The notes under the pieces were generated by a model that worked only from the letters and a program-made list of their open reading frames with translations, was not told the DNA's origin and did no database searches. Positions 8,025-29,084 of a stretch of 64,000 nt of DNA are shown one piece after another. The position numbers and the translations under genes were made by a program. The stretch is from Sphingomonas sp. Y38-1Y. GTDB lineage: Bacteria; Pseudomonadota; Alphaproteobacteria; Sphingomonadales; Sphingomonadaceae. The stretch covers positions 3,131,001-3,195,000 of the forward strand of contig NZ_CP135916.1 in assembly GCF_032391395.1 (NCBI RefSeq). Reading direction: 5' to 3'. How positions within the stretch are numbered: position 1 is the stretch's first letter; each line of letters opens with the position of its first letter.

Positions 8025-10733
8025 TCACCAGGTCTTGCGCAGGCTCACCGAGATGAGGCGACCGATCGGGTTGGCGACGGTCGCATCATACCCGCCGCTG
8101 CCGTTGCCGGAGGGCGCGAGGTTCACATAGGGCGGCTTGCGGTCGAACAAGTTCACCGCCTCGATCCCGAAGGTGAAGCCGTTGTCGAAGAAGCCCGACG
8201 CCTGGGGGTCGCCGACGACGAAATTGACGCCGAGATCAAAGGTGGTGAACGACTTCACGTCCTCCACCGGCGTGATGAGGATGTTCTCGTATCCGCCGAC
8301 ATGCGTGACCTGAAGCCGGGCGCTGACGTCGTCCAGATCCCAGACCACCGATCCGCGGGCGCGGAAAGTGAGCGGGTTGAAGATCGTGTTGCGTCGGTCG
8401 CGGGCGACCCCGTCGGGCGTCACCGACAGCTTGTATTCGGTCAGATAGGTGCCGTTGGCGTTGAGCGTGAACGCCCCCGCGCCCGCGGTCTCCAGCCGGT
8501 ACATCGCCTGGAAGTCGATACCCTTGGTCGTCGAACGGCCCAGGTTGAAGTTGCGCCCGTCGATATAGAGCGTGACCGGCGACGGCGGCACGCCCAGGAT
8601 CGGGATGCCCGAGCCCGTCAGCCGCGCGACCTCCGCCGCTGCCGCCTCGCCGCGGAAGATGATGCCGGTGCCGGCGAAGTCCGCCTCGTTGCCGAGCAGA
8701 GTCAGGTCGGAGAGATAGCCCGCGACCTGCCCCTCATACAGGACGTCAAAATAGGTGAGGCTGAGCTTGGCATTGGGCGCGGGCTCCCAATCGGCACCCA
8801 CGGTCCAGGTCGTCGCTTCCTCCGGCCCCAGGTCCAGGTTCGGCCCCGAACGGGCAAGCCCCGTCACCAGCGCCGAACCCTGCGTCGGGTCGACATAGCG
8901 CTGAACGAACAACGCGTTCGAATTGCCATAGATCTGCGAGAAGATCGGTGCGCGGAACGACGTGCCATAGCTGCCGCGGAAGGTGAGCCCGCGCACCGGC
9001 GACCAGATCGCGCCGAACTTCGGATTGGTTGTCGAACCGACGTCGCTGTAGCGGTCGTGGCGGATCGCGGCATTCAGGATCAGCCGCTCGAAGCCCGGCG
9101 TCGCGTTGGCCGCGCCGAAGATCGGCACGTTGAGCTCGCCATAGAAGCTGTCGACCTGACGATCAAACGTCCGGAAGGTGAGCGCCGAAGTCGGCGCGCC
9201 GCGCTGGCTACCCAGGTCAGTGACGATCTCCTGCCGTTCATAGCCCGCGGCGAAGCGGATGTCGTTGCCGCCCAGCTTGAACAGCGGACCATCCAGATTG
9301 GCCTGATAGACGGTCAGCTTGTTGAACGTCGGCGCGTAGAACACCTGGTCCGAGATTGCGTCGAGCACCGCTTGGCTGGTCCGGCCGAGGCCAAACGGAT
9401 CGAACGCCGTTGCCGGGTTGCTGCTGGCCAGCGCGGCGTTCAAGGCGGCGTTGTTGATGCCGTTGCGGCTGTCGGAGATGTCGCGCGTCTTGCCGTGGCT
9501 GACCTGCGCGTTGAGGCGCCAGTCCCAGGGCAGCTTGACGCGGAGGCCGCCTGTCACCTGCCACGTCTCGGTAAAGCCGAACGAGGCGTCGCGCTCCAGA
9601 TCGTCGGCGAAGTTGTAGCGCACCTGCACCGAACTGGGGTTGGTCCCCGGCGGCGCGACGAAGAAGGCGTTGGTGTTGGGCACCGTCAGCGTGCCGACCG
9701 CATAGGCCGGGTTCCGGAAGAACTCCCGGTGCGAGAAATAGCCGTCCGCCAGCACCGTCAGCCAGTCGGTGATGTCCTGGCTGAACGTGCCCGCCACGCT
9801 GTGATAGTCGGTCTGCGGGAACAGGTCCTGACCTGCGGCAGCCTCGCAGCGATTGGCCGTGCCGGCGACCAGAGCGCCCGCATTGGCCGGGGTGACGCCG
9901 CCCTGCGGGATCGCATAGCTGACGCCGCCCGCGACGATGTTGCCGGGCGTGCATTCCTGGACGCGATAGTCGCGGCCGCCGAAGCGGCGCTGGTCGCTGG
10001 TGAAGAAGTCGCGATCGTCGCCCGACAGGTTGGAGCGATAGACGCGCTCATAGGCGAGCATCGCCTGGCCGCCGGTCCAGCGCTTGCCGAGCGCGATGCC
10101 GTACTGCTCCTCGTGGAAATTGTCGGCAACGCCCATCCGCGCCAACGCCTCGATCCCGTCGAGCGAGCGGCGCGGGATCAGGTTGACGACGCCCGCCACC
10201 GCATCCGACCCATAGATGGCGGACGAACCGTCGGCGACGACCTCGACCCGCTCCAGCGCCAGCGTCGGGATGATCGACGGGTCGGCCGAGCGGCTGTTGC
10301 CGACGACCCGGTGCCCGTCGACCAGCAGCAGCGTCGCATAGGGGCCGATGCCGCGCAGGTTGACGCTGTTGCCATAGGTGATGTTGCTGTTGCCGCCCGA
10401 CTGGCCGCGCGAGTTTTCGGAGACGCCCAGGTCGAATACCTGCGGCAGTTCACGCAGCAGGCGGTCGGTGGTGACCGCGCTCGACGCACGGATTGCGCCG
10501 CGGTCGAGCGTCAGCTGCGGCGATCCTGCCGCCGCCACGCCGCGGATGCGCGTGCCGGTGACGACGATCTCGCCGTCATTGGGCGACGCTTCCCGCTGGG
10601 GCGCGGGCTCGGTCGAGGTGTTCTCCGCCTCGTCCGGCACCGCTTCCTGCGCGAGCGCGGGCATGGCCGCCAGCATCGCGATCGCCGCCGTTCCGAGCCG
10701 GAGCGCGGCCGGCATTCCCTTCAGATCTCGCAT
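8025..10733 (-). CDS. TonB-dependent outer-membrane receptor
   Basis: A 902-residue TonB-dependent receptor. The signal peptide (GTAAIAMLAAMPALAQEA) ends near residue 29, the TonB box/plug start GEIVVTGTRIRG is near residue 54, and plug motifs NLRGIGPYATLLLVDGHR and IYGSDAVAGVVNLI follow; the barrel ends ISVSLRKTW with an aromatic last residue. It transports a substrate through the outer membrane. Its gene begins 17 bases after the hydrolase gene that precedes it on the same strand, so the two are co-transcribed, and it is divergent from the TRAP/CoA-transferase operon. It probably takes up the substrate or product of the hydrolase. Confidence 0.93.
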   Translation of the reverse strand: MRDLKGMPAALRLGTAAIAMLAAMPALAQEAVPDEAENTSTEPAPQREASPNDGEIVVTGTRIRGVAAAGSPQLTLDRGAIRASSAVTTDRLLRELPQVFDLGVSENSRGQSGGNSNITYGNSVNLRGIGPYATLLLVDGHRVVGNSRSADPSIIPTLALERVEVVADGSSAIYGSDAVAGVVNLIPRRSLDGIEALARMGVADNFHEEQYGIALGKRWTGGQAMLAYERVYRSNLSGDDRDFFTSDQRRFGGRDYRVQECTPGNIVAGGVSYAIPQGGVTPANAGALVAGTANRCEAAAGQDLFPQTDYHSVAGTFSQDITDWLTVLADGYFSHREFFRNPAYAVGTLTVPNTNAFFVAPPGTNPSSVQVRYNFADDLERDASFGFTETWQVTGGLRVKLPWDWRLNAQVSHGKTRDISDSRNGINNAALNAALASSNPATAFDPFGLGRTSQAVLDAISDQVFYAPTFNKLTVYQANLDGPLFKLGGNDIRFAAGYERQEIVTDLGSQRGAPTSALTFRTFDRQVDSFYGELNVPIFGAANATPGFERLILNAAIRHDRYSDVGSTTNPKFGAIWSPVRGLTFRGSYGTSFRAPIFSQIYGNSNALFVQRYVDPTQGSALVTGLARSGPNLDLGPEEATTWTVGADWEPAPNAKLSLTYFDVLYEGQVAGYLSDLTLLGNEADFAGTGIIFRGEAAAAEVARLTGSGIPILGVPPSPVTLYIDGRNFNLGRSTTKGIDFQAMYRLETAGAGAFTLNANGTYLTEYKLSVTPDGVARDRRNTIFNPLTFRARGSVVWDLDDVSARLQVTHVGGYENILITPVEDVKSFTTFDLGVNFVVGDPQASGFFDNGFTFGIEAVNLFDRKPPYVNLAPSGNGSGGYDATVANPIGRLISVSLRKTW

Positions 10734-10750: not shown

Positions 10751-12511
10751 TTATTTCGTGGTCGCGAAGCGGATCGGCTGCAGCGCCGGCACCTCGACGC
10801 GGGTGGCGCGTCCGCGCTCGATCGTCATCGTCTCGGCGGGCTTGCGCTCGATCTCGGCGATGTTGCGCTGGCGCGGATCGGCGCCGCGGATCGAGAAGCG
10901 CAGGCGATGACCGGCCCGGAACCGCTTGGCCGTGGGCGACAGCGCGATGGCGAGATCGTATGCCTCACCCGGCTTCACCGGCATGACGTCCGCCTGTCGC
11001 CCCGAATGCCAGGGCAGGCCAAGCGTGTCGTAGGGCGCCTTCGACAGCTTGCGATTGGCGAGCGCCAGGCGACCGAAGGCGACGTTCTCGGCCTTCCCGT
11101 CCGGCGCGACCTCCTCAAGGAACACGAAGACGTTGCCCGCGGGCTGGTCGCTCGACACGCGGACATGCGCGATCGGGAAACCGGTGACGGTGACGTCGGC
11201 GGCGAGCGGCGGACTGGTGTAGGTCAGCCCCTTTTCGTCCAGCACCGCGGGCCAGAAGGGGAAATATTCCTTGCTCGCCACATCATAGTCGGTGGTGAAG
11301 GCGTCGCGGCCGGCAGCGCCTGCGCCCATGCCGAGCATGCCGTCATTGGCCGACCGCACCGTCCCACTCTTGCCGCCGACGGCATAGAGCGCGGTCCGCG
11401 TCACGCCAACGCCGGGCAGCGTGTCGCTCTCCACCCAACGCTCCGCCTCCGGCGCGTCGAGCACCCACCAGCGATAGCGCTTGGTGCGGTCGATGCCGCT
11501 GTCGAGCCCCTTCAGATGCTTGTCGAAGAAGGCGCGCTGGACCTGGCCCAGATCGACGCCCGGCGGCGGCTCGCAATGGCTGCCGGGGCCCATGAGGAGT
11601 CGCCCGTTGAGGTTCGCGGCGGCGATGATGACCTGCGCCGCGGGCTCGTCATGCCAGGTCGCCCAATTGTAGAAGGCGATGCCCGAGCGCTTGAGCGTGT
11701 CGAGATAGGTGTACGGCCCCACCTCTTCCCAGAAGCGCGTCTGCGTATAGCGCGACACGCTGTCGCGATGGGGCATGGTGTTCCAGAGAAGCGCCATCGG
11801 ATCGTTGGCGGCATGCTGAGCGACCGCGGCCTTGAGCAGGCTGCCGTCCTTGTCCTCGTCGAGCGGCAGTGTCGCGAGATCGACCGACAGCGGGTCTTCG
11901 GGCCGAGTGTTGAACTGGCCGGTGATGCCGCCCGCGCGCACGAACTCGTATTTGTCGAAATCGCTGGCGCCCGCGAACACCGCCTTCAAATGCGGCGGCG
12001 CGGTGCTGGCGGTCTGGACCGTAGTGCCCCCCAAATACGAGCAGCCGGTCATTCCGACCTTGCCGCTGGACCAGGGCTGCGCCGCCAGCCATTCCACCAG
12101 ATCGCGGCCGTCCTGCGCCTCGGTCCGATCCTGCATGCCGCGGCGACGACCGAACGAAGCGCCCTTGCCGCGAATGTCGGCGACCGCGACGACATATCCG
12201 TGGTCGGTCATGCCCTTCAGCCCGAGCTCGGCCGACTGTGCGGTCTCGACGATCTTGCCGTCCTTGTCGCGGAAGCGCCCGCGATAGGGGGTGAAGGCAA
12301 AGATGACGGGCAGCTTCTCCGCCACCGGACGCCCATTCACCGCGGGGCGATAGACATGCATCGCCAGCCGCGTGCCGTCGCGCACGGCGATATAGCGCGA
12401 GCTTCGCACGACTTCGGAATAGCGCGGCGGCGCCTCCTGCGCAGCCGCAAGCACCGGCGCGGCAACCAGCAGCGCGGCAAGCGTGGCGTTCCGGCTCGAC
12501 AGGCCCAGCAT
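10751..12511 (-). CDS. Secreted CocE/NonD (X-Pro dipeptidyl-peptidase S15-type) hydrolase
   Basis: A 586-residue alpha/beta hydrolase of the S15/CocE group (PF02129 catalytic domain followed by the PF08530 beta-jelly-roll domain). The ATG at 12511-12509 follows GGAGAG and opens a signal peptide ending VLAAAQEAP; the frame runs further upstream but without these features. The nucleophile lies in TGCSYLGG (S158); a candidate catalytic histidine is in GPGSHCEPPP. Family members cleave acyl esters, amides or proline-containing peptides, for example cocaine esterase and glutaryl-7-ACA acylase. It is first in a unit with a TonB receptor, divergent from the TRAP operon, so it likely releases the acid that the TRAP system imports. 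Confidence 0.88.
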   Translation of the reverse strand: MLGLSSRNATLAALLVAAPVLAAAQEAPPRYSEVVRSSRYIAVRDGTRLAMHVYRPAVNGRPVAEKLPVIFAFTPYRGRFRDKDGKIVETAQSAELGLKGMTDHGYVVAVADIRGKGASFGRRRGMQDRTEAQDGRDLVEWLAAQPWSSGKVGMTGCSYLGGTTVQTASTAPPHLKAVFAGASDFDKYEFVRAGGITGQFNTRPEDPLSVDLATLPLDEDKDGSLLKAAVAQHAANDPMALLWNTMPHRDSVSRYTQTRFWEEVGPYTYLDTLKRSGIAFYNWATWHDEPAAQVIIAAANLNGRLLMGPGSHCEPPPGVDLGQVQRAFFDKHLKGLDSGIDRTKRYRWWVLDAPEAERWVESDTLPGVGVTRTALYAVGGKSGTVRSANDGMLGMGAGAAGRDAFTTDYDVASKEYFPFWPAVLDEKGLTYTSPPLAADVTVTGFPIAHVRVSSDQPAGNVFVFLEEVAPDGKAENVAFGRLALANRKLSKAPYDTLGLPWHSGRQADVMPVKPGEAYDLAIALSPTAKRFRAGHRLRFSIRGADPRQRNIAEIERKPAETMTIERGRATRVEVPALQPIRFATTK

Positions 12512-12604
12512 CGCTCTCCATCCCGAACTTGCCCGCGTTGGCGCGGGTCGTCGTGCCGCGAAAAAGCGGCGTCGGGCAGCGTGATGAGCTAGGTCGACAG
12601 GATT

Positions 12605-12622
12605 GTCAACAAAATGGTTGAC
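12605..12622. promoter_or_regulatory. Inverted repeat between the two divergent catabolic units
   Basis: GTCAAC-AAAATG-GTTGAC lies between the hydrolase start (12511) and the CapA-type gene start (12709). TTGTCAAC-type half-sites are common for GntR/FCD regulators. One site here could control both directions; no regulator gene is adjacent other than the GntR gene at 7145. Confidence 0.5.
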
Positions 12623-12708
12623 GCTCAAACCTGTGATCTTTAGCGCTGCCGTCAGTAGAGCAGCGGCGCCCTTTGTCATGCAAGGGGAAGCACGCAGGGC
12701 GGGAGCGG

Positions 12709-13824
12709 ATGGTGGCGACAGGCGAGGCACGCGAGAGGCTGAAGCTGGTACTGGCCGGCGACCTCGTGCTCGACGAACCCGATCCCGATCACTGGCTGTC
12801 GGGGATCGCGCCGGCGTTCCAACGCGCCGACCTCAGCATCGCGCATCTGGAAGTCCCGCATACCCATGCGCCCTCCTCGTTCGACGGCGACGTGCCGGCG
12901 CCCGGCGCCGACCCTGCGCACCTGTCCGCAATCGCGCGGGCGGGCATCGACATGGTCTCGCTCGCGGGCAACCACATGGCCGATTGCGGCGCGGCGGGGA
13001 TCGCCGACACGATCGCCGGCCTGGATGCGAGCGGTATCGCCCATGCCGGCGCCGGCGCGACCCTGACCGCCGCCCGCGCGCCCGCGGTCATCGAGCGCAA
13101 GGGCTGGCGCATCGGTTTCCTGAGCTACAACTGCGTGGGGCCGGCAGCGGGCGTCGCGACCGCCGATTGCGCGGGCTTCGCATCGCTGCCGATTGCCACG
13201 TCTGACGGATCGCCGGTCGCCCCCGCCGCCGATCTCGTCCAACTGACGTTGGAAGCGACCGAGATCCTCGCTGCCGATATTGCCGCGCTCCGCCGCGAGG
13301 CCGACCTGATCGTCGTGGCGCTGCACAAGGGGATCGTCCACACACCCGCGCGGCTCGCCCCCTATGAGCGGCCGGTCGCACACGCCGCGATCGATGCAGG
13401 CGCCGACATCGTCGCCGCGCACCACGCGCACATCGTCCGCGGGATCGAGCTTTATCGCGGCAAGCCGATCTTCCATGGCCTCGGCAACGCCTGCGTCGTC
13501 ACGCGCGCGCTGTCGCCCGATCAGGACCATCCCGCCCGCGCCGAATGGGCGGAGCGGCGCAAGCGGCTGTTCGGGTTCGAGCCCGACCCCGCCTATCCCC
13601 TTGCCCCCTTTCACCCCCAAGCGGTCAACGCGATGTTAGGGACGGTCGAGATCGAGGCGGACGGGACGCTGCGCACCGGCATGATCGCCGTCGACGTGCT
13701 ACCGCCCGGCCGACCGGTGTTGGCGACGGGTGCGCGCGCTGTCGAAATTCACGACTATGTCGCCGCGATTGGGCGAGAGGCAGGCTTGCCCCCTGCCCCG
13801 CTGTTGCTGGAGGGTGCGGCATGA
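12709..13824 (+). CDS. CapA-family metallophosphatase-fold protein, cytoplasmic
   Basis: A 371-residue CapA/PgsA-type protein (PF09587, calcineurin-like fold). Metal-site motifs appear in order: AGDLVLDEP, AHLEVP, LAGNHMADCG, ALHKGI, AAHHAHIVRG and FHGLGN. I use ATG 12709 because it follows GGGAGCGG; an upstream ATG at 12673 has no ribosome site. CapA proteins are best known from poly-gamma-glutamate synthesis and are usually membrane-anchored, but this one shows no signal or membrane segment, so a soluble hydrolase role is more likely. It heads the nine-gene rightward operon, joined to dctQ by an overlapping ATGA, which ties it to the same pathway. Its reaction is unknown. Confidence 0.82.
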   Translation: MVATGEARERLKLVLAGDLVLDEPDPDHWLSGIAPAFQRADLSIAHLEVPHTHAPSSFDGDVPAPGADPAHLSAIARAGIDMVSLAGNHMADCGAAGIADTIAGLDASGIAHAGAGATLTAARAPAVIERKGWRIGFLSYNCVGPAAGVATADCAGFASLPIATSDGSPVAPAADLVQLTLEATEILAADIAALRREADLIVVALHKGIVHTPARLAPYERPVAHAAIDAGADIVAAHHAHIVRGIELYRGKPIFHGLGNACVVTRALSPDQDHPARAEWAERRKRLFGFEPDPAYPLAPFHPQAVNAMLGTVEIEADGTLRTGMIAVDVLPPGRPVLATGARAVEIHDYVAAIGREAGLPPAPLLLEGAA

Positions 13825-14293
13825 ACGCCGATCCCGCGCCCACCACCCCACCGTCCGCCTGCTCAGCATCGTCGGCGGCGTCGCGCTGCTGTTCGCGATG
13901 GCGGTCGACGTAGTTTCCGTCATCGGCCGGCACATCAAGCTGCCGCTGCTCGGCTCGATCGAGCTCGTCCAGGCCGCGGTTGTCGTGTCGGCGAGCGCCG
14001 GGATGATCGTCGCCACGATCGCGCGGTCGCATGCGGTCGTCCATCTCGTCGTCGATCGGCTGTCGCCCGGCGCGAAGGGCGTGGTCCTGCGCGTGGCCGC
14101 CGCGCTGTCGGCGCTGTTCTTCCTCGCGCTCGCGATCGGCAGTGGCTGGGTCGCGGCGGACATGATGGGCGGACATGAGGAGAGCGAGTTGCTCCACATC
14201 CCCTATGCGCCGCTCCGCTTCGTGCTCGTCGCCGCGACGCTGACGGTCGCCGCGATCTTTGCCGCGCAGGCGATCGGGCGGGTGCGCCGATGA
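13814..14293 (+). CDS. TRAP transporter small membrane subunit (DctQ), possible frameshift at start
   Basis: The four-helix DctQ subunit (PF04290) of a tripartite ATP-independent periplasmic transporter: RLLSIVGGVALLFAMAVDVV, the conserved SVIGRHIKLPLLGSIELVQ, a third helix around SALFFLALAIGSGW and a fourth. The natural-looking start is the ATG at 13821, which overlaps the upstream stop and follows GGAGGG at ideal spacing, but that frame leaves the DctQ frame after nine codons. One extra C in the run 13846-13849 would join them as MNADPAPTTPTVRLLSIV. As sequenced, the only usable in-frame start is GTG 13814, with poor spacing. The gene is either intact with an assembly error or truly damaged at its 5' end. 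Confidence 0.8.
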   Translation: MRHERRSRAHHPTVRLLSIVGGVALLFAMAVDVVSVIGRHIKLPLLGSIELVQAAVVVSASAGMIVATIARSHAVVHLVVDRLSPGAKGVVLRVAAALSALFFLALAIGSGWVAADMMGGHEESELLHIPYAPLRFVLVAATLTVAAIFAAQAIGRVRR

Positions 14294-15603
14294 TGAGCTT
14301 CGCCACCCCCGCGACCGGCATGGCCGGGGTCGCGATCCTGTTCCTCCTGCTGCTCGCGGGGGTGCCGATCGGGGCTTCGCTGGGCCTCGTCGGCGTCGCG
14401 GGCCTCGCGATCGTGCTCGGCGGACTGGAGCCGGCGCTCATCAAGTCGAGCGTGACGCTCCTTCATGCCGCGACCAGCTACGAGCTCGGCACGCTGCCGC
14501 TGTTCCTCCTGATGGCGCATCTGTGCTTCTCGGCCAATGCCAGTCGCGACCTGTTCGACGCCGCCGCGTCGTTGATCGGGCATCGCCGCGGCGGCCTTGC
14601 CTCCGCATCGGTCGGCGGCTGCGCGGCGTTCAGCGCGATCAACGGATCGAGCCTCGCCACCGCCGCGACCATCGGTCTGGTCGCGCTGCCGGAGATGCGG
14701 CGGCGTGGCTATTCGGATGCGCTGGCGACGGGCAGCGTCGCGGCGGGTGGGACGCTCGGCCAGATGATCCCGCCCTCGGGCGCGCTCATCGTGTTCGGCA
14801 TCATCGCCGAACAGTCGATCGGCACGCTGTTCACCGCCGCGCTGATCCCCGGCATTACCCAGTTCCTCTTCTACCTCCTCGTCATCGCGCTGATCGTCCG
14901 CTGGAAGCCCGACCTCGCCCCGCCCAGCGAGCGCGTGCCCTGGCCGCAGCGCTGGGCCGCGCTCGCGCGTGTCGCCGACGTGCTCGCGCTGATCGCGCTC
15001 GTGATCGGCGGCATCGCGATCGGCTGGTTCACCCCGACCGAGGCCGCGTCGATCGGCGTCGCCGGCGCCATCGCCATCTCGGCCTTTCGCCGCCGTCTCA
15101 CCTGGGCATCGATGCGCACCGCGATGGAGGAGACGCTGCGCACCAGCGGGCTCATCTACATCGTCGTCGTCGGCGCGTTGATCTTCTCGGTGTTCGTCAG
15201 CGCCACCGGATTGGCCGACTCGCTGGGCGATGCGGTCAAGTCGGCGGGCGGTGGGCCGACGATGACGCTCATCATCATGGCGGTGCTGCTGCTCCTGCTC
15301 GGCTCTGTCCTCGACGGGCTGGCGCTGATGCTGCTGACGACGCCGATCCTGCTGCCGATCGTCACCAGCCTGGGACTGTCGCCGATCTGGTTCGGCATCT
15401 TCCTCGTCCGCGCGATGGAGATCGGGTTCGTCCACCCGCCGATCGGCATGAACCTCTATGTCATCCAGCGGATCGCCGGCGACGTGCCGATCGGCCGCAT
15501 CTTCCGCGGCGTCATGCCCTTCCTCGTGTCGGACCTCATCCATTTGCTGCTGCTGATCCTGTTCCCCGTCATCGCCCTGGGCCTGCCGCAATGGCTGAGC
15601 TAG
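14290..15603 (+). CDS. TRAP transporter large permease subunit (DctM)
   Basis: A 437-residue DctM-type permease (PF06808) with about twelve membrane helices. Visible family signatures include GVPIGASLGLVGVAGLAIV near the start, the cytoplasmic-loop pattern GSVAAGGTLGQMIPPSGALI, IGWFTPTEAASIGVAGA and the C-terminal GFVHPPIGMNLYVIQRIAG. With DctQ it forms the Na+-driven translocation unit that accepts substrate from DctP. The start overlaps dctQ (ATGATGA) and its end overlaps the next gene by 13 bases, so translation is coupled. TRAP systems typically import carboxylates such as hydroxy- or keto-acids, in keeping with the CoA-transferase genes downstream. Confidence 0.92.
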   Translation: MMSFATPATGMAGVAILFLLLLAGVPIGASLGLVGVAGLAIVLGGLEPALIKSSVTLLHAATSYELGTLPLFLLMAHLCFSANASRDLFDAAASLIGHRRGGLASASVGGCAAFSAINGSSLATAATIGLVALPEMRRRGYSDALATGSVAAGGTLGQMIPPSGALIVFGIIAEQSIGTLFTAALIPGITQFLFYLLVIALIVRWKPDLAPPSERVPWPQRWAALARVADVLALIALVIGGIAIGWFTPTEAASIGVAGAIAISAFRRRLTWASMRTAMEETLRTSGLIYIVVVGALIFSVFVSATGLADSLGDAVKSAGGGPTMTLIIMAVLLLLLGSVLDGLALMLLTTPILLPIVTSLGLSPIWFGIFLVRAMEIGFVHPPIGMNLYVIQRIAGDVPIGRIFRGVMPFLVSDLIHLLLLILFPVIALGLPQWLS

Positions 15604-16631
15604 ACACCGCGGTCGCGGCGATCCTCGCCGATCCGATGGCGCACGCGCGCAAGGCGCCGCGAGCGATCGGCTTCGTCGGCGACGTGCCCGCCGACGTGCT
15701 CGCCGCGCCCGGCCTCACCGCCGTCCATCTGCCCTGGCGTGTCGCCGAACCCAGCGAACGATCGCAGCAATGGGTGGAGCCAAGCTTCGGTCCGCATGTC
15801 TGGGCGATGATCGAGGATTGGGCCGACGGCGCCTATGACTTCATGGAAGCGGTGGTGTTCGGCCGCGGCGACGACAGTGCGCAGCGGCTCTATTACTATA
15901 TCTGCGAACTCCAGCGTGTCGGCGAGCTCAAGGGGCCACGCCCGCTGATCTGGGACGCCGCATTCATCCCACGGCCGTCGAGCGAAGCGCACGCCGCACG
16001 CGCGGTCCGCAAGCTGGCGGAGCAGCTCGGCGTGGATGACGCCGGTCTTGCGGAAGGCATCGTCAACGCCGACCACCGCCGCGAGTGGCTCGCCGCGGCA
16101 CAGGCCTCGCGCGTCGGCGACGGCGCCCGCTACGAACGCCTTGCCCGCGCCAGCCTCTATGCGCCGGTCGAGGACCTGCCGCTGCCCGAGGCCGGCACCG
16201 CCGCGACCGGACGTGTGCTCCTCGCCGGATCGGCACCCGCCGACGACACGCTCCATGCCGCGGTCGATGCGACCGGCTGGGCGATCGTCGCGGAGGATCA
16301 CCCGCTCTCGCTCGCCCGGCTCGGCGCGCCGATCGGCGACGCGAGCGACCCCGCCGCCGCCATCGCCGCGCATGCGCGCGCCGCCTCGGCCGCCAAGCGC
16401 GGCTTCGGCGACCGCGCTGCGCACATCGTCACCGCCGCTCGGGAGGCGAAGGCAGACGCCGTCATCCTGTGGCTGATCGAGGAGGAGGAGGCGCTGTCCT
16501 GGCACCTTCCCGCCCAGGCGGCCGCGCTCGATGCCGCCGGCATCCCGCACCTCATTCTCACGCGCCGCGCCTGGCATGGCCGCGACGGTGCCGGCGACAC
16601 GATCGCCCGCTTTCTCGAAGGACTGACCTGA
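15591..16631 (+). CDS. 2-hydroxyacyl-CoA dehydratase-like protein lacking cluster cysteines
   Basis: A 346-residue protein resembling the HgdB/FldC/BcrB side of the 2-hydroxyacyl-CoA dehydratase family (PF06050). The N-half has EAVVFGRGDDSAQRLYYYIC where iron-sulfur members have a cysteine-aspartate pair. The C-half has the family pattern TGRVLLAGSAPADDTLHAAV, WAIVAEDHPLSLARLGAPIG and the terminal DAAGIPHLILTRR. It contains only one cysteine (in YYYICELQ), so it cannot ligate a [4Fe-4S] cluster as usual members do. It is translationally coupled to dctM and to the CoA transferase (ATGA overlap), and probably pairs with the cysteine-rich homologue at 18742 as a structural or substrate-binding subunit. 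The assignment rests on motif resemblance only. Confidence 0.72.
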   Translation: MAELDTAVAAILADPMAHARKAPRAIGFVGDVPADVLAAPGLTAVHLPWRVAEPSERSQQWVEPSFGPHVWAMIEDWADGAYDFMEAVVFGRGDDSAQRLYYYICELQRVGELKGPRPLIWDAAFIPRPSSEAHAARAVRKLAEQLGVDDAGLAEGIVNADHRREWLAAAQASRVGDGARYERLARASLYAPVEDLPLPEAGTAATGRVLLAGSAPADDTLHAAVDATGWAIVAEDHPLSLARLGAPIGDASDPAAAIAAHARAASAAKRGFGDRAAHIVTAAREAKADAVILWLIEEEEALSWHLPAQAAALDAAGIPHLILTRRAWHGRDGAGDTIARFLEGLT

Positions 16632-18745
16632 TGACGTTGCTCGCCGGCCGCCGCGTGCTCGCGCTCGGCACGATGGAGGGGCGTCCGCTGTGGCGCTACC
16701 TCCAGTCGCTGGGTGCCGAGTCGACCGAGCGGCTTGAGGACGCCGATTTCCTGATCGACGATGCCGGTCCCGACACCGCCGCCGCGATCGGCTGGCCGCG
16801 CGATCGGATCGAACGCGAGTTGCCCGCTCTCGTCCACGTCTCCGTCACCCCCTTCGGCAGCCACGGCCCGCGCCGCGACTGGCGCGGCAGCGAGCTCGTC
16901 GCCTCGGCGATGGGCGGCACGCTGCGCCTGACCGGCAATCCCTACCGCCGGCCGGTCAAAGAAGCGCTCGACGCCTGCGGCTTCCATGCCGAGATGATCG
17001 CCGCGGCGGGCGCGATGGCGGCCCATCATGCACGGGTCGCGCACGGTCACGGCCAGCATGTCGACGTGTCGGTGCAGGAGGCGGCGTTCAACCGCGGCGT
17101 CAGCTCGATCGTCAGTTGGCAGTTCGACCAGCGCAAGCTGGCGCGGAGCGGCGGCGCGCTCAACTATGGCCGCGCGACGGTGCGGTGCATCTGGCCGCTT
17201 GCCGACGGGCATTGCTTCCATTCGCTGATGACCGGCCGCTTCGGCGCGCCCGCCAATCAGGGGCTGTCGGACTGGATCGACGAGGTCGGGATGCCCAACC
17301 CGCTCGCCGGCACCGATTGGCTGAAGTACAACCGCTCGACGCTCGACCCTGCGATCCGCGCCACCTGGGAGGCGGCGATCGAGGCGTTCTTCTCGACCCG
17401 CACCAAGGCGGAGATCGCGACCGAGGGCCGCCGCCGCGGGATCAACGCCTGTGTCGTCGCGATGCCCGCCGATGTGCTCGCCGATCCGCATCTCGCTGCT
17501 CGCGACTTCTGGACCGAGGAAGCGGGGGCCAAGCTGCCGCGCCGCTATGTCGCGCTCCGCGACGGTCCCGCCGCAGCCGTTCGCCCGGCCGCAGAGGCAA
17601 CGCGCCCCGGCCCGCTCGCGGGCGTTCGCGTGCTCGATTTCTCCTGGGCGCTGGTCGGGTCGATCACGTCGAAGACGCTCGGCGATCTGGGGGCCGAGGT
17701 GGTGAAGGTTGAAAGCCGCACCCGCCCGTGCCTGTCGCGCATCGACGTCCAGGTCGCCGCCTCGCGCGCCGACAGCTTCGACGACAAGCCGTGGTTCGCG
17801 CACCTCAACAGCTCGAAGCACAGTCTGGCGCTCGACGCCAAGCGGCCCGAGGCGATGGAGGTGCTGGGGCCGCTGATCGACTGGGCCGACGTGGTGGTCG
17901 AGAATTTCTCGCCGGGCACGATGGCCAAGCTCGGCCTCGACTATGACGCGATCGCCGCGCGCAATCCGGGCATCGTGATGGTGTCGGGCAGCGTCTATGG
18001 CCAGACCGGGCCGCTCGCGCACGAATGGGGCGTCGACGGGACGGGCGGCGCACTGTCCGGCCGCACCGCGCTGACCGGCTGGCCCGATCGCGATCCCGTC
18101 GTGCCGGGGGCGGTGCCTTATGGCGACGTCATCGTCCCCTTCGTCATGGCCGCCAGCGTCGCCGCCGCACTCGCCCGCCGGCGCGAAGGCGGCCCCGGCT
18201 GCCACATCGACGCGTCGATGTACGAGATTTGCGTCGAGCAGATGCGCGGCGCCTTGATGGCCGAACAGCGCGGTACGCCGCCGCACCGCATGGGCAATGC
18301 CGACCCCGATTGGTACGCGCAGGACGTCTATCCGACGATCGGCGAGGATCGCTGGATCGCGATCGGCGCGCGGGACGAAGCCGAATGGCGGACGCTCACC
18401 GGCCTGGCGGGCGGCGAGGACATCGCCGCCTGGACCGCCGTTCAGGAGGCGCATGCGCTTACCGACCAGCTCCAGCAGCTCGGTCTCGCCGCCGGCGTCG
18501 TGCAGGATATCGAGGAGTTGATGGTCGATCCGCAGCTTGCCGCACGCGGCGCGCTGGTGACGCTCCCCCATCCCGCGCTTGGGGCTTTCGGCCATGTCCG
18601 CACGCCGATCGACTTCTCGCGCGACAAGCCCGAACCCTTCCGCGCGCCCGCGATCGGCGAACATGCGCGCGACATTGCGGTGGATCTTGCCGGCATGGCG
18701 CCCGACCGCTTCGAAAGCCTGATGGCCGAAGGACTGTTCCGATGA
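16631..18745 (+). CDS. Two-domain CaiB/BaiF (family III) CoA transferase
   Basis: A 704-residue tandem family III CoA transferase (PF02515), which moves CoA from an acyl-CoA donor to a free acid. The shorter N-terminal unit (about 1-325) has LACKED-start CaiB features: VHVSVTPFGSHGP, the candidate catalytic Asp in KEALDACGFHAEM (D114) and HVDVSVQEAAF. The full C-terminal unit (about 335-704) starts GPLAGVRVLDFSWALVG and has VVVENFSPGTMAKLG, SGSVYGQTGP, a candidate Asp in VPYGDVIVP (D499) and HIDASMYE. ATG 16631 overlaps the previous stop and the gene's own stop overlaps the next start. It lies between the two dehydratase-like genes, so it probably makes their CoA substrate. Confidence 0.88.
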   Translation: MTLLAGRRVLALGTMEGRPLWRYLQSLGAESTERLEDADFLIDDAGPDTAAAIGWPRDRIERELPALVHVSVTPFGSHGPRRDWRGSELVASAMGGTLRLTGNPYRRPVKEALDACGFHAEMIAAAGAMAAHHARVAHGHGQHVDVSVQEAAFNRGVSSIVSWQFDQRKLARSGGALNYGRATVRCIWPLADGHCFHSLMTGRFGAPANQGLSDWIDEVGMPNPLAGTDWLKYNRSTLDPAIRATWEAAIEAFFSTRTKAEIATEGRRRGINACVVAMPADVLADPHLAARDFWTEEAGAKLPRRYVALRDGPAAAVRPAAEATRPGPLAGVRVLDFSWALVGSITSKTLGDLGAEVVKVESRTRPCLSRIDVQVAASRADSFDDKPWFAHLNSSKHSLALDAKRPEAMEVLGPLIDWADVVVENFSPGTMAKLGLDYDAIAARNPGIVMVSGSVYGQTGPLAHEWGVDGTGGALSGRTALTGWPDRDPVVPGAVPYGDVIVPFVMAASVAAALARRREGGPGCHIDASMYEICVEQMRGALMAEQRGTPPHRMGNADPDWYAQDVYPTIGEDRWIAIGARDEAEWRTLTGLAGGEDIAAWTAVQEAHALTDQLQQLGLAAGVVQDIEELMVDPQLAARGALVTLPHPALGAFGHVRTPIDFSRDKPEPFRAPAIGEHARDIAVDLAGMAPDRFESLMAEGLFR

Positions 18746-20031
18746 CCACCGCAGCCACCGGCCAGCGCAGCCGCAAGCTGCTCGCCTGCACCGCCGACGC
18801 CACCGCCTATCAAAAGGCGTTCGGCGCCGACCTCAAGCGGCGCGTGGTGGACGAGGGCGAGCCCTTCGTCGTCGCGCAGGCGGATACCCCGCACGAGATC
18901 TTCCACGCGATGGACATCCCCATCGTCAGCAACCAGTGGTGGTCGGCCTACATCTCCGCCAAGCAGCTGTCCGGCCGCTATTTCAAGGCGCTGACCGACA
19001 AGGGCTATCCCGAGAACAGCTGCAAATACTGCTCGCTCGGCCTTGCCTGCACGCTCGCCGACGATCCGGCCAGCGCGCCCTGGGGTGGGATGCCGAAGCC
19101 GACGATGCTCGTCGCACGGCTCACCTGCGATTGCATCCAGGGGGTGTTCGGTCATTGGGCAGAGGCGCTCGGCACCGAGTTCTTCCCGATGGAGGCGCCC
19201 GCCTGGGAGGACAAGGACCCCGCCTGGTTCGCCTCCTCGCGGACCGAGTGGGAGCGGGTCTATCAGCCCGACCGCATCGCGCTGATGGTCGACGAGCTGC
19301 ACGAGATGATCGCGGTGCTGGAGGCGCGCACCGGCCGCCGCTTCGACATGGACCGGCTCGAAGCGCTGATGCACCGCATCAACGAGCAAGAGGGCTATAT
19401 TGCGGAAGCGGCGACGATGATCGGCGCCGCCCGCCCCTGCCCCGTCGGCATCACCGACCAGATGCCCAACACAATGATCCCGCAATGGCATCGCGGTTCC
19501 GACTGGGCGGTGGCACATGCCAAGCGCTTCCGCGACGAGGTTGCCGAGCGCGTCGCCGCGGGCGCGGCGGCGAGCGACAATGAGCGCATTCGCCTGATGT
19601 GGATCGGCGCCGGACTGTGGCACGATCCGGGCTTCTATCAGGCGCTGGAGGCGCGGCTGGGCGCGGTGTTCGTCTGGTCGATGTACATGCCCTTCGCCGG
19701 CCCGCAGTATATCCGCGAGATGAAGGGCAAGCCGATGGAGGCGCTCGCCAGCCGCATCTGCTCGATGAACGAGGTGCTGCACCTGCCGCCCTGGATGAAC
19801 GGCTGGATGGTGAGCGAGGCGGAGCGGTGCGGCATCGACGCCGCGGTCGTGCTGATGCCCCCGCGCAACCGGCTGTCGCAATCGGGGACCAACCTCACCA
19901 TCCGCGCGCTCAGGGCAGCTGGCGTGCCCGTCCTCGCGCTCGATGCCGACATGGTCGATGCGAGCAAATGGGACCATGACCGCGTCGTCGGCCAGGTCGA
20001 GGACTTCCTTCGCGAGGCCGACCTCGCATGA
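18742..20031 (+). CDS. 2-hydroxyacyl-CoA dehydratase-family protein with cysteine-rich cluster site
   Basis: A 429-residue member of the HgdA/HgdB/BcrC family (PF06050). Characteristic parts are PIVSNQWWSAYISAKQLSGR, the cysteine groups SCKYCSLGLAC (C94, C97, C103) and TCDCIQ (C129, C131), a helical middle, RLMWIGAGLWHDPGFYQAL and the C-terminal ALDADMVDASKWDHDRVVGQ. Known members use a [4Fe-4S] cluster and an ATP-driven activator to remove water from 2-hydroxyacyl-CoA or to reduce benzoyl-CoA, in anaerobes. Here it is coupled (ATGA) to a CoA transferase and to dctP in an apparently aerobic bacterium. No activator gene is in the window. The actual reaction is unknown. Confidence 0.83.
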   Translation: MTTAATGQRSRKLLACTADATAYQKAFGADLKRRVVDEGEPFVVAQADTPHEIFHAMDIPIVSNQWWSAYISAKQLSGRYFKALTDKGYPENSCKYCSLGLACTLADDPASAPWGGMPKPTMLVARLTCDCIQGVFGHWAEALGTEFFPMEAPAWEDKDPAWFASSRTEWERVYQPDRIALMVDELHEMIAVLEARTGRRFDMDRLEALMHRINEQEGYIAEAATMIGAARPCPVGITDQMPNTMIPQWHRGSDWAVAHAKRFRDEVAERVAAGAAASDNERIRLMWIGAGLWHDPGFYQALEARLGAVFVWSMYMPFAGPQYIREMKGKPMEALASRICSMNEVLHLPPWMNGWMVSEAERCGIDAAVVLMPPRNRLSQSGTNLTIRALRAAGVPVLALDADMVDASKWDHDRVVGQVEDFLREADLA

Positions 20032-21068
20032 AGCGGGCGGGCCTAGTCCTTGCCGCGGCGCTGGCGCTCGCCGGGTGCGGCCGTGCGGCGCCGCCGGGCG
20101 TGACCGAGCTGGTCTATGCCTCTCCCTACAGCCCGCGCCATCCGTTCAGCCGCGCGGACCAGGCGTGGATGAAGTTTGTCGAGCAGCGATCGGGTGGGCG
20201 CATCCGCATCCGCCCCAACTGGTCGGGGGGGCTCCTCTCCTCCGAAGAGTCGATGACCGAGCTTCGCCACGGCGTTGCCGATATCGGCCTCGTCACGCCG
20301 ATCTATGTGAAGGGCGGCGCGCATCTGCTGCGCACCCAGACCGGCCTCTATTCGGGCGTTCGCGCGATCGAGGATCAGGTCGCGCTCTATCGCTGCATGG
20401 CGGCGACCAGCCCGCAGATCCAGGGCGAGCTTGCCGGCCTCCACATTCTCGCGGTCCAGGGCGGCGTGCTGCCGGGGATCGTCACGCGTGACCGGCCCGT
20501 GCGCTCGATCGCCGACCTGCGCGGCCTGCGCATCCGCGCGCCGGGCGAGCTCCTGCCTGTTCTGCGCGAGCTAGGCGCCGATCCCGTCAACATGCCGATG
20601 GGCGACGTCTATTCGGCGATGGCCAAGGGCGTGATCGACGGCGTGATCGCGCCCGAGGACACGTTCAAGTCGCTGCACCTGGCCGAGATCGCCAAGCATT
20701 TCGCCAGCCTCGACATCCCGCGCGGCGCCTATCCCGCGCGCGCGATCAGCGACAAGCGCTGGGCCGAGCTGTCGCCGGAGGTGCGCCAGGTGCTGAGCGA
20801 AGGCACTGCCGTCTGGGAAGCCGCACTTGCCGACGAGAACCGGCGCGAACAGGAGGCCGGGCGCAAGCTTGCCGCGGAAGAGGGCGTCGCGTTCACGACG
20901 ATCCCGGCGGCCGACCAGGCGCGGTTCGCCCAAGTCTATACCCGCGATACGCTTCGCAATGTCGAGAAGCTGCAGCGGCTTGGGATCGACGGGATGCCGA
21001 CCGCACGGCTTGCGGCGGCGAGTATCGGGCCGGGGGGCCGTGTCGCGTGCAGGGGGACTATCGCATGA
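20028..21068 (+). CDS. TRAP transporter substrate-binding lipoprotein (DctP)
   Basis: A 346-residue DctP-type periplasmic binding protein (PF03480). The N-terminus is a lipoprotein signal, LAAALALAGCG with lipidated Cys17, so the protein is membrane-anchored rather than free. Conserved regions are YSPRHPFSRADQAWMKFVEQ, LRHGVADIGLV, the anion-binding stretch SIADLRGLRIRAPG with its arginine, and PMGDVYSAMAKGVIDGVIAP. It captures a carboxylate and delivers it to the DctQM permease encoded 14.3-15.6 kb. Separation of dctP from dctQM by three enzyme genes is unusual and shows the enzymes and transporter form one unit. Start ATG overlaps the previous stop. Confidence 0.92.
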   Translation: MKRAGLVLAAALALAGCGRAAPPGVTELVYASPYSPRHPFSRADQAWMKFVEQRSGGRIRIRPNWSGGLLSSEESMTELRHGVADIGLVTPIYVKGGAHLLRTQTGLYSGVRAIEDQVALYRCMAATSPQIQGELAGLHILAVQGGVLPGIVTRDRPVRSIADLRGLRIRAPGELLPVLRELGADPVNMPMGDVYSAMAKGVIDGVIAPEDTFKSLHLAEIAKHFASLDIPRGAYPARAISDKRWAELSPEVRQVLSEGTAVWEAALADENRREQEAGRKLAAEEGVAFTTIPAADQARFAQVYTRDTLRNVEKLQRLGIDGMPTARLAAASIGPGGRVACRGTIA

Positions 21069-22258
21069 GCCAGCCGCTTGCCGGCATCCGCGTTGCCGAC
21101 TTCACGCATGTCATGGCGGGTCCGTTCGCCACGCACCTGCTGCGGCTGCTCGGCGCCGAGGTCATCAAGATCGAGAGCCCCGGCCGCGGCGACGCGATGC
21201 GCTATTACGGCGCCGACCGCGCCTATGACGGGATGGCGCCCGCCTTCATCGGCGTGAACTGCGGCAAGAAGTCGATCGCGCTCGACCTGAAGGACCCCGA
21301 CGAGCTGGAGCTCGCGCGCGGCATCGTCGACCGATGCGACGTGCTGGTCGAGAATTTTCGACCGGGCGTGATCGGGCGGCTGGGCCTCGGTTACGAGGAC
21401 GTGGCCGCGCGCAACCCGTCGATCGTCTATTGCTCGATCTCGGGCTACGGCCAGTCCGGACCACTGCGCGATTGGCCCGCGATCGACAACATCGTCCAGG
21501 CGACCAGCGGGATGATGAGCCTAGGCGGCAATCCCGGCGACCCGCCGATGCGCGTGGGCTTTCCCGTCGTCGACACGCTGACCGGCCAGACCGCGGCGTT
21601 CGCGATCCTGGCGGCATTGCTCCGGCGTGAGCGTGGCGGCGGCGCGGGCGAGTTCATCGACGTGGCGATGCTCGACGCCAGTATCGCGTTCATGACCTCC
21701 GCGGTGGTTCCCTTCCTCGTCACCGGCACCCCGCTCGAGCGGACGGGCAATGTCGGCTATAGCGGTCAGCCCACGGCCGCCTTGTTCGAATGCGGCGACG
21801 GGCGGCTGGTGTCGCTGGGCGTCGTCCAGCAGGCGCAGTTCGAGGCGCTGGCGCGCTTCCTCGACCGCACCGACTGGCTGGCCGACCCGCGGTTCGGCGA
21901 CCCCGACCTGCGCCGTGCCAATGCCGCCGACATGCAGGCCGAGCTCGACGCCGAGCTTCGCCGCCGCCCCGCCGCCGAGTGGGAGCAGGCGATGAGCCTC
22001 AAGGGCATTCCCTGCGGCATGGTCCGCGGCGTCGACGAGGCGGCGATGCTGCCGCATCTGGCCGGGCGCGGTGCCAAGCTGCCCGTCACCATCGCCGGAC
22101 TGCCCGGCGGCAACGAGGCGGCCGAGATCGTCAACGCCGGCTTCTCAATGCGCGAAGACGGACCGCGCGTCGATCAGCCACCGCCGCGGCTCGACGAGCA
22201 TCGCGCCGAAGTGCTCGACTGGCTAGGATCGAACGAGCGCCGCCGCGCCAACGGGTGA
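21065..22258 (+). CDS. CaiB/BaiF (family III) CoA transferase
   Basis: A 397-residue single-domain family III CoA transferase. It begins QPLAGIRVADFTHVMAGPFA and contains LLGAEVIKIESPGRGD, the CoA-site loop VLVENFRPGVIGRLGLGY, SISGYGQSGP, the catalytic Asp in FPVVDTLTG (D170, matching Asp169 of formyl-CoA transferase) and FIDVAMLDAS. I use the ATG at 21065, which overlaps the dctP stop and follows AGGGGGAC. It transfers CoA between acids; as the second CoA transferase in the operon it may activate a different intermediate or recycle CoA from the product. The exact donor and acceptor cannot be read from sequence. Confidence 0.92.
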   Translation: MSQPLAGIRVADFTHVMAGPFATHLLRLLGAEVIKIESPGRGDAMRYYGADRAYDGMAPAFIGVNCGKKSIALDLKDPDELELARGIVDRCDVLVENFRPGVIGRLGLGYEDVAARNPSIVYCSISGYGQSGPLRDWPAIDNIVQATSGMMSLGGNPGDPPMRVGFPVVDTLTGQTAAFAILAALLRRERGGGAGEFIDVAMLDASIAFMTSAVVPFLVTGTPLERTGNVGYSGQPTAALFECGDGRLVSLGVVQQAQFEALARFLDRTDWLADPRFGDPDLRRANAADMQAELDAELRRRPAAEWEQAMSLKGIPCGMVRGVDEAAMLPHLAGRGAKLPVTIAGLPGGNEAAEIVNAGFSMREDGPRVDQPPPRLDEHRAEVLDWLGSNERRRANG

Positions 22259-22269
22259 AGGGGAGAAAG

Positions 22270-23181
22270 ATGAAGAGGTTGCTGACCGCATCGCTGATGA
22301 TGCTCGCTTTGCCCGCGGTCGCTCAGGACGCGGCGCCCAAGCCCGAGCCGGTGACGACGCCGGGCTCGGGTCGCTGGCCCGCCAGATTCGAGCGGGCGGC
22401 GAACCTGCCTGACCATGTCGTCTATCGCCCCGGCGACCTGTCGGCGCTCGGCAAGCGCAAGCTCGGCGTCTATGTGTTCGGCAATGGCGGGTGCAGCGCG
22501 GACGGGACGAGTTCGCGCAACCACCTGCTCGACATCGCCTCGCACGGCTATCTGGCGATCGCGCCGGGGACGATCCCCGATCCGGCCGCCCGGAAGGAGG
22601 CGCCCACCGCTCGCCCGCCGGGCCAGCTGTCGGCACAGACTCCGGCTTCCTCGCTAAAGGCGGCAATCGACTGGGCGGTCGCGGAAAATGGCCGCGCGGA
22701 CAGCCCCTATCGCGGACGCATCGACACGTCGCGCATCGCCATTTCGGGCTTCAGCTGCGGCGGGCTTCAGGCGCTGATGAACGCGGACGACCCCCGCGTG
22801 AAGACGATCGTCGTGATGAACAGCGGCGTCTTCAACGAAGGCGGCAGCCGGATTACCGGGATCGAGGTGGGCAAAGACGCGGTCGCGCGGCTGCGCGGGT
22901 CGGCGCTCTACGTCCTCGGGGGCCCGAGCGACATCGCCTATGCCAACGGCATGGACGATTACCGCCGGATCGCGGGCATCCCGGCCGCGGTGGTCAACAT
23001 CCCCGTCGGCCATGGCGGCACGTACATGCAGCCCAATGGCGGCGTTGCGGCGGAGGTGGTGGTCGCCTGGCTCGACTGGCGCCTGTGGGGCGACAAGGCG
23101 GCGGCGGCAAAGTTCGTGGGCGCGGACTGCGGCTTCTGCCGAGACCCGCGCCTCACGATCGAGCGGAAGAACATCCGCTAG
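22270..23181 (+). CDS. Secreted alpha/beta hydrolase
   Basis: A 303-residue exported protein with a signal peptide (MKRLLTASLMMLALPAVAQD) and an alpha/beta-hydrolase core: strand and oxyanion region LGVYVFGNGGCSADG, nucleophile elbow ISGFSCGGLQAL, and a candidate histidine in VGHGGTYMQP. Cys residues in NGGCS and DCGFCRDP may form disulfides. ATG 22270 follows AGGGGAGA. It is the last gene of the rightward operon, 11 bases after the CoA transferase. A periplasmic esterase, lactonase or thioesterase-like role in substrate release is plausible; the substrate is unknown. Confidence 0.8.
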   Translation: MKRLLTASLMMLALPAVAQDAAPKPEPVTTPGSGRWPARFERAANLPDHVVYRPGDLSALGKRKLGVYVFGNGGCSADGTSSRNHLLDIASHGYLAIAPGTIPDPAARKEAPTARPPGQLSAQTPASSLKAAIDWAVAENGRADSPYRGRIDTSRIAISGFSCGGLQALMNADDPRVKTIVVMNSGVFNEGGSRITGIEVGKDAVARLRGSALYVLGGPSDIAYANGMDDYRRIAGIPAAVVNIPVGHGGTYMQPNGGVAAEVVVAWLDWRLWGDKAAAAKFVGADCGFCRDPRLTIERKNIR

Positions 23182-23187
23182 GCAGTT

Positions 23188-23280
23188 GTACCCCGGCGAA
23201 GGCCGGGGTCCAGTTGGGCAACCTTCGTTGGCTGTCCCATCCGGGCCTTCCCGACTGGACCCCGGCCTTCGCCGGGGTAC
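23188..23280. repeat. REP-like 27-bp inverted repeat pair
   Basis: Perfect 27-bp arms at 23188-23214 and 23254-23280 (core CCGGCGAAGGCCGGGGTCCA) around a 39-base loop, directly after the operon's last stop codon. Same family as at 7.9 and 37.2 kb. It could stop transcription by forming a strong hairpin, although there is no T tract. Confidence 0.85.
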
Positions 23281-26495: not shown

Positions 26496-26592
26496 GATGC
26501 GGCTCTAGCGCAAGCCAATGGGCGTCCGCCAGCGCGACACAAAGTTGCTCGGCGACTTGCGATTCAGCAGCAAAAGGTTAAAGGCGCGCGCC

Positions 26593-28032: not shown

Positions 28033-28065
28033 TGGCCGGGGACATGCCCGGGGAGGGTCGTTGGT

Positions 28066-28200
28066 ATGCGTCGAGTGATGGTCCTGCTGATCGCGGGCAC
28101 CGTAATGTCCGGTCTGGCCGCGGCCTATGCCTCATCGGGCAAGGTCCGCACCAAGGGCGACGCGCCCGTCCAGCAGGCGAGCACAGTCGCCGAGGGCTGA
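28066..28200 (+). CDS. Small 44-residue membrane or secreted protein between leuC and leuD
   Basis: A 45-codon frame with a strong GGGGAGGG ribosome site 8 bases before its ATG. The peptide is a hydrophobic N-terminal segment (MRRVMVLLIAGTVMSGLAAA) and a short polar tail ending STVAEG, so it is either an exported peptide or a single-pass membrane protein. It lies 33 bases after leuC in the same direction. The function is unknown. Confidence 0.65.
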   Translation: MRRVMVLLIAGTVMSGLAAAYASSGKVRTKGDAPVQQASTVAEG

Positions 28201-28266
28201 CGCCCACGCGTGACAGACGAAGCGATGGCTGGCACATCCGCCCCGGTTCAAAGGGGAATTGATGCC

Positions 28267-29082: not shown

Positions 29083-29084
29083 CC

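Follow-up and report, generated by a model that had tools for sequence, protein, structure and literature searches.

What do two relatives of oxygen-sensitive radical enzymes do in a bacterium that appears to live with oxygen? The question is raised by a gene cluster of Sphingomonas sp. Y38-1Y that lies within 64,000 nucleotides of contig NZ_CP135916.1 (positions 3,131,001 to 3,195,000), the whole stretch of DNA that was analysed and is called the window below. Its sequence shows a TonB receptor, two secreted hydrolases (one CocE and one alpha/beta), a tripartite ATP-independent periplasmic (TRAP) importer whose receptor is a lipoprotein, two coenzyme A (CoA) transferases of class III and a heterodimer of the HadC/HadB type, whose subunits we call HGDa and HGDb (together HGDab). 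We find that the cluster is widely conserved, that this heterodimer has lost the parts for radical chemistry and that the cluster travels with genes for phenolic acid breakdown; it therefore probably marks an undescribed route for plant compounds. The window genome is a single contig of 3.58 Mb rated 100% complete. No class III ribonucleotide reductase was found in it, which fits an aerobe, and the host is thus apparently aerobic.

The original prediction, made from the sequence, had nine rightward genes facing a CocE/S15 hydrolase and a TonB receptor. All nine are there. They run CapA, DctQ, DctM, HGDa, CaiB2, HGDb, DctP, CaiB1 and secreted hydrolase, and the two facing genes are both on the minus strand:

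8025..10733, minus strand, TonB-dependent outer-membrane receptor
10751..12511, minus strand, CocE/NonD (S15) hydrolase with a signal peptide (TIGR00976, 7e-72)
12709..13824, plus strand, CapA, a PGA_cap/calcineurin-like metalloenzyme (PF09587, 2.7e-53)
13730..14293, plus strand, DctQ, TRAP small permease (PF04290, 1e-13)
14290..15603, plus strand, DctM, TRAP large permease (TIGR00786, 4.6e-99)
15591..16631, plus strand, HGDa, HadC/BzdN-like subunit, conserved cluster ligands absent (PF06050, weak, 3e-9)
16631..18745, plus strand, CaiB2, two-domain class III CoA-transferase (PF02515)
18742..20031, plus strand, HGDb, HadB/BzdO-like subunit with an altered cysteine set (PF06050, strong, 7e-50)
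20028..21068, plus strand, DctP, TRAP solute-binding lipoprotein (PF03480, 5.8e-32; LAGC lipobox by eye)
21065..22258, plus strand, CaiB1, single-domain class III CoA-transferase (PF02515, 1.4e-108)
22270..23181, plus strand, secreted alpha/beta hydrolase (PETase-like, below cut-off, 4e-6; signal peptide by eye)

Scanning a collection of 84,980 species genomes with HGDb gave 52 loci, which span Sphingomonadales, Asticcacaulis, Hyphomonadaceae, gammaproteobacterial, Steroidobacteraceae, Lysobacteraceae, deltaproteobacterial and other records. Forty-two are of the core type (L003-L044), and the 23 of these with at least 19 kb of DNA form a well-covered subset; the genes flanking the core set were counted as matches at E <= 1e-6, anywhere in the DNA available for each locus. 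DctQ, DctM, HGDa, HGDb, DctP and CaiB1 each occur in 23/23 of the well-covered loci, CaiB2 in 22 (L030 is without it) and CapA in 21 (L009 and L040 are without it). All eight genes are found together in 20 of the 23, the raw count of 21 including a cross-match between CaiB1 and CaiB2 in L030. The TonB receptor is matched in 20, CocE in 19 and the secreted hydrolase in 16. The original prediction had proposed a search for such conserved co-occurrence, and it is borne out: this gene set is, with near certainty, far beyond chance and a conserved island. Within Sphingomonadaceae, HGDb is matched in 26 of 397 sampled genomes. Twenty-four are carriers whose HGDb is of the window family, with identities of >=72% in 19 and of 41-46% in five, and two have distant homologues only (G088 and G152). 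A sample of 398 genomes from the phylum gave six matches, some only distant. Nineteen rows for non-carriers were dropped.

Across L003-L044, HGDb is the most conserved protein of the operon (63-81% identity) and HGDa the least (32-54%). The poor conservation of HGDa, together with the loss of all metal ligands in some branches (see below), could be read as the mark of a degenerate or structural remnant that is not an enzyme and that scaffolds or regulates the CoA-transferases. Against this, HGDb has dozens of invariant residues over 29 aligned rows, and we regard a remnant as very improbable.

Both subunits belong to the family to which the original prediction assigned them, by profile and by fold. 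They pass the curated cut-off of PF06050 (HGD-D, 28.4 bits), HGDb with 170.9 bits and HGDa with 37.4, and are the only two PF06050 proteins in the window genome. Compared by VIA-align, both match the catalytic heterodimer fold of the benzoyl-CoA reductase and 2-hydroxyacyl-CoA dehydratase radical enzymes, and among the matches listed the relatives of HGDb, where named by their source, are mostly called subunits of one or other of these enzymes. The active [4Fe-4S] cluster of BzdO is bound by Cys95, Cys128 and Cys380 plus a water molecule, with the acid/base residues Glu65 and His131 nearby, and HadB has the same cluster coordination (PMC11971306).

This set, which in the class I benzoyl-CoA reductases (BzdNO, MbdON) is that of BzdO Cys95/128/380 and Glu65, is only partly present in HGDb. 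The cysteines of HGDb are C94, C97, C103, C129 and C131; the third canonical cysteine is absent, and residue 65 is Gln. In the best 120 of 1,790 database relatives, all 120 have Cys in the ligand columns 94 and 129, none has it in column 376 and the column of BzdO Glu65 is Gln in 120/120, while C97, C103 and C131 are Cys in 120/120, a gain of CxxC and CxC motifs. The canonical comparison set comprised seven distant homologues from fetched genomes, some of them close to each other and three adjoining an activase (L080, L081 and L099). These have Cys in all three ligand columns (7/7) and Glu in the Glu column (7/7), Cys in neither the C97 nor the C131 column (0/7), and Cys in the C103 column in 3/7. 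Among 33 rows of the window family, the window's own included, nine have none of the three ligands, and three (L045-L047) have all three canonical ligands together with C97. The CxxC/CxC rows lie on one side of a branch with support of 100/100; the rows without cysteines require three changes on the best tree, and a single change is compatible with the data. The course that we infer from this is one of re-ligation within a single branch and of loss elsewhere. HGDb is free of ligands in the three aligned loci of the Maritimibacter type (L048, L050 and L052); in these and in L051 it is accompanied by MarR, CaiB, TRAP and cytochrome P450 genes.

The partner subunit has changed as well. BzdN has six ligands for its double-cubane cluster; HGDa has no comparable conserved cysteine set. 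No column is Cys in every row of 121 HGDa proteins, the best reaching 95/121, and nine of the 121 lack cysteine altogether. The five cysteines of HGDb probably provide a protein-ligated metal or Fe-S site of structural character, predicted to use C94, C97, C129, C131 and perhaps C103. Two further candidates were set aside. An HExxH motif at HGDb 51-55 is invariant in the best 120 of the 1,790 relatives and lost in L085, and for that reason we do not claim it as a metal site. The counterpart of BzdO His131 was dropped as evidence, because the seven canonical rows have gaps in its column and the residue of HadB there is Ala.

The radical enzymes are charged by an activase, an ASKHA ATPase of PF01869, a family that also includes sugar kinases. 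None is encoded in the complete window genome, and no match over the cut-off occurs in 23 of the 24 Sphingomonadaceae carriers (G380 has one). In G088 and G152, the two genomes whose homologues are all distant and keep the full ligand set, a single PF01869 gene lies ~0.4 kb from a PF06050 gene. Activase-linked genes of 2-hydroxyacyl-CoA dehydratase or benzoyl-CoA reductase type with the full ligand set are present in sphingomonads, in these two genomes and in L099, a plasmid of Sphingopyxis macrogoltabida where they lie near a molybdopterin oxidoreductase, an AMP-binding ligase and acyl-CoA dehydrogenases.

A canonical radical 2-hydroxyacyl-CoA dehydratase or benzoyl-CoA reductase (HadABC/FldABC or BzdNOPQ), receiving its electron from an unrecognised reductase, would share with HGDab its fold and heterodimer, class III CoA-transferase partners like FldA and HadA, and C94 and C129, both of which the core clade retains. 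The deeper relatives L045-L047 have Cys in all three ligand columns, and the two deltaproteobacterial genomes of L046 and L047 have the most PF01869 matches (9 and 10) among 30 carriers reached through named loci. Radical chemistry nevertheless fails for the window's proteins, because there is no activase, the three-Cys [4Fe-4S] site is broken, conserved cluster ligands are missing from HGDa and Gln has taken the place of the catalytic Glu; the complete loss of ligands in nine family rows points the same way. We are confident that HGDab is not a canonical ATP-dependent radical dehydratase, and the canonical explanation is highly unlikely. Sequence places HGDab among the descendants of oxygen-sensitive radical enzymes, with the parts for radical chemistry lost. 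It differs from HadBC and FldBC in all these respects and also in its aerobic host and its context of TRAP, TonB and esterase genes. What stands of the original prediction is the outside-to-inside catabolic system, with TonB receptor, secreted hydrolases, TRAP uptake, CoA transfer and the PF06050 pair, in an apparently aerobic host and in many lineages; radical-type dehydration does not stand, and its fallback, dehydration of a non-radical kind, may still hold.

What, then, is the substrate? The original prediction named no substrate class, and the association that follows is new here. A p-hydroxycinnamoyl-CoA hydratase/lyase is encoded in 24/24 Sphingomonadaceae carriers versus 61/373 others (Fisher 4.8e-18, uncorrected for relatedness and counting genomes rather than independent events, as do all of these co-occurrence tests). 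Tannase/feruloyl esterase is found in 20/24 carriers versus 12/56 sampled non-carriers of the same family. A control aromatic-CoA family, PaaA/PaaC, has no bias (2/24 versus 6/56). The hydratase/lyase of the window genome (G000:C1:3334602-3335408), in a locus at G000:3326-3345 kb that also has a FerA-like ligase, scores 450.6 bits where the cut-off is 276. In other genomes the gene adjoins the HGD cluster itself: in Croceicoccus (L096, which is G321, and L026), in L045 and in G204. Its score passes the curated cut-off in L096 and L045, and in L026 it is assigned by similarity.

Upstream of the cluster in the window lie four further genes:

517-3612, second TonB receptor
3737..5158, plus strand, aldehyde dehydrogenase (ALDH), probably the hydroxybenzaldehyde dehydrogenase of the hydroxycinnamate pathway (Aldedh, 5e-149)
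5400..7085, plus strand, carboxylesterase type B, likely exported (COesterase, 1.4e-78)
7145..7822, plus strand, GntR/FCD transcriptional regulator

The ALDH is 76-79% identical to ALDHs that lie beside the HGD cluster in L015, L030, L045, L096 and L097, and 84% and 89% identical to those directly adjoining the hydratase/lyase in G063 and G027; on these identities it belongs with the ALDHs linked to hydratase/lyase. The unit probably starts to the left of CapA and takes in all four genes; with the ALDH and the regulator it would go beyond the gene set of the original prediction. The regulator has a match in 11 of the 23 well-covered relatives, and the carboxylesterase is rarely conserved with the cluster, with a match in one of the 42 core-type loci.

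The neighbouring genes and the co-occurrence hint, therefore, at hydroxycinnamates as the substrate class, and it is likely that the cluster serves compounds of this type. The described pathway of ferulate and hydroxycinnamate catabolism (FerA, FerB/Ech and ALDH) co-occurs with the cluster and is sometimes adjacent to it; the HGD, TRAP and CaiB modules are not known to belong to it.

One of the CoA-transferases, by its likeness to an aryl-acid enzyme, points in a similar direction. The C-terminal domain of CaiB2 is best matched by 9fn0_B (3e-46) and the N-terminal domain aligns best to 9fn0_A (3.6e-27), so that its two domains align to the two subunits of benzylsuccinate CoA-transferase (BbsEF). 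The latter is a two-subunit enzyme, whereas CaiB2 is a single fused chain in an aerobe. Enzymes of the BbsEF type have a catalytic Asp in the active subunit; in the alignment an Asp of CaiB2 sits one column away from that position. CaiB1 is formyl-CoA transferase-like (10uh, 1.4e-62).

HGDab may act on the phenolic half of the ester or on the other half. In the second case HGDab and the CoA-transferases would degrade the non-phenolic part, a hydroxy acid (for example quinate, malate, tartrate or an aldarate), with the hydroxycinnamate going separately through a FerA-like ligase, hydratase/lyase and ALDH. The strong co-occurrence with tannase/feruloyl esterase and hydratase/lyase is in line with this account, and MmgE/PrpD proteins adjoin some HGD clusters, while a Rhizobium homologue is adjoined by an enolase-superfamily protein (mandelate racemase/muconate lactonizing enzyme type) and MmgE/PrpD. 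The closeness of CaiB2 to an aryl-acid CoA-transferase and the many invariant Trp of HGDb, which would suit an aryl group, tell against it, and we consider it possible, if rather unlikely.

Alternatively, the substrate could be a 3-(hydroxyphenyl)lactate, for instance from rosmarinate-type esters, converted through its CoA ester to a hydroxycinnamoyl-CoA that hydratase/lyase and ALDH then cleave, as in FldABC without the radical. FldA and FldBC, a class III CoA-transferase and a PF06050 pair, convert phenyllactate to cinnamoyl-CoA, and the universal presence of hydratase/lyase in the Sphingomonadaceae carriers, with its adjacency to the cluster in the four loci named above, fits such a route. 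Removal of the alpha-hydroxyl without a radical is chemically hard, the atoms that achieve it in HadBC and BzdNO are altered here, and several carriers outside Sphingomonadaceae are without the hydratase/lyase. We judge this route unlikely, and it is doubtful that HGDab makes a hydroxycinnamoyl-CoA directly.

On balance we lean towards a catabolic island that serves plant hydroxycinnamates in ester linkage, or aryl acids close to them, with an activase-independent HGDab. The secreted esterases would free a carboxylic acid from its ester, the TRAP system would take it up, and CaiB1 and CaiB2 would place it on CoA. To act on this acyl-CoA, HGDab would need no electrons injected at the cost of ATP. 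Its chemistry would be of an acid/base or metal-assisted kind, for example an elimination or a side-chain rearrangement, and its product would join the hydroxycinnamoyl-CoA hydratase/lyase and ALDH route. More tentatively, and short of calling it probable, we suggest that HGDab represents a new non-radical, activase-free class of acyl-CoA lyase or dehydratase that arose within the benzoyl-CoA reductase/2-hydroxyacyl-CoA dehydratase family. New CxxC/CxC cysteines would have re-ligated the open [4Fe-4S]-OH2 site in one branch, and others would have lost the site entirely, making an anaerobic radical scaffold usable by strict aerobes on plant phenolic acyl-CoA esters.

A number of points weigh against a hydroxycinnamate island with an activase-independent HGDab. 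No gene of the cluster names the reaction, and the role proposed for HGDab rests on sequence and gene context. In the window genome the hydratase/lyase lies ~184 kb from the cluster. Outside Sphingomonadaceae it was found in 8/12 core-type and 3/9 distant carriers, and not in Maritimibacter, Mesobacterium, Devosia and two deltaproteobacterial genomes; this test covered 21 of the 52 loci, and several of the 21 are metagenome-assembled genomes of unstated completeness. A lifestyle in association with plants may be what the co-occurrence reflects. PF01869, which takes in sugar kinases as well, is matched over the cut-off in 12 of the 30 genomes reached through named loci; these carriers partly overlap the Sphingomonadaceae sample (L014 and G319, for example). 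Finally, the five conserved cysteines of HGDb leave room for a redox-active cluster that another reductase would feed.

CapA, in which no signal peptide was seen, has as its closest solved relative the epimerase MslH (8gq9, 1.7e-21, 80 bits). Within the printed alignment the MslH active-site residues Asn87, His88, Asp91, His259 and His295 are kept, whereas the metal ligand His261 is Gly in CapA, which falls far below the NCBIfam equivalog cut-off (92.7 of 700 bits). The closest solved chains to DctP are 4nap and 4pgn, whose ligands we take to be indole-type acids and did not use as evidence; no paper on the ligands of DctP relatives was found in the open-licence literature.

The original prediction had nearly all genes joined by ATGA overlaps. 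The overlaps are real, with an in-frame ATGA at four of the eight junctions (DctQ/DctM, CaiB2/HGDb, HGDb/DctP and DctP/CaiB1). The HGDa/CaiB2 junction is TGATG and the CaiB1/hydrolase junction GTGA, a GTG of the hydrolase at 22255 overlapping CaiB1. DctM and HGDa (start ATG 15591) overlap by 13 nucleotides. CapA and DctQ overlap by at least 11 nucleotides with an ATGA that is out of frame, and the true DctQ start is probably GTG 13814. CocE probably starts at 12511, where a signal peptide is seen by eye, rather than at 12730, to which its open reading frame reads back. Directly 3' of the last gene is an inverted repeat (window 23188-23280), resembling a terminator or a repetitive extragenic palindromic element, in which GTACCCCGGCGAAGGCCGGGGTCCAGT and its complement form the two arms of 27 bases. 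Further downstream, LeuC/LeuD-like genes (26518-29717) were considered as a second dehydratase and rejected, being ordinary 3-isopropylmalate dehydratase subunits over NCBIfam cut-offs, and a BlaR1-like sensor protein (33626-35356, below the NCBIfam cut-off) is unrelated to the cluster.

A second island of the window genome (G000:C1:184000-203500; L117, 9845-19493) contains a tannase, a TonB receptor, an EamA-like membrane protein, a second CapA, a P450, a LacI and a hydrolase, "EamA-like" being our own reading of an unannotated membrane protein that has no Pfam match. A similar set of tannase, TonB receptor, EamA-like protein and second CapA shares its replicon with the HGD cluster, at a distance of no more than ~25 kb, in Novosphingobium ES2-1 (L100), G098 and G321. 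In six loci a conserved open reading frame lies downstream of the HGD cluster (L009:13982-15664, and similar ones in L018, L019, L023, L036 and L039); the L009 copy has two CxxCH haem motifs and no Pfam match.

That no described system has this gene set, as the original prediction had it, agrees with our search of open-licence full text, judged by titles and abstract openings, in which no paper describing such a cluster was found; subscription literature lay outside its scope, so absence from print is not proven. The dehydratase and reductase names given to HGDb relatives imply an anaerobic radical chemistry for which their sequences give no support. The conserved operon offers a set of enzymes open to direct testing. 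If our reading is true, HGDab would show by what changes an oxygen-sensitive radical family came to oxygen-tolerant chemistry, and the cluster would be an unrecognised branch of the aerobic use of plant phenolic esters, in sphingomonads and in other proteobacteria.

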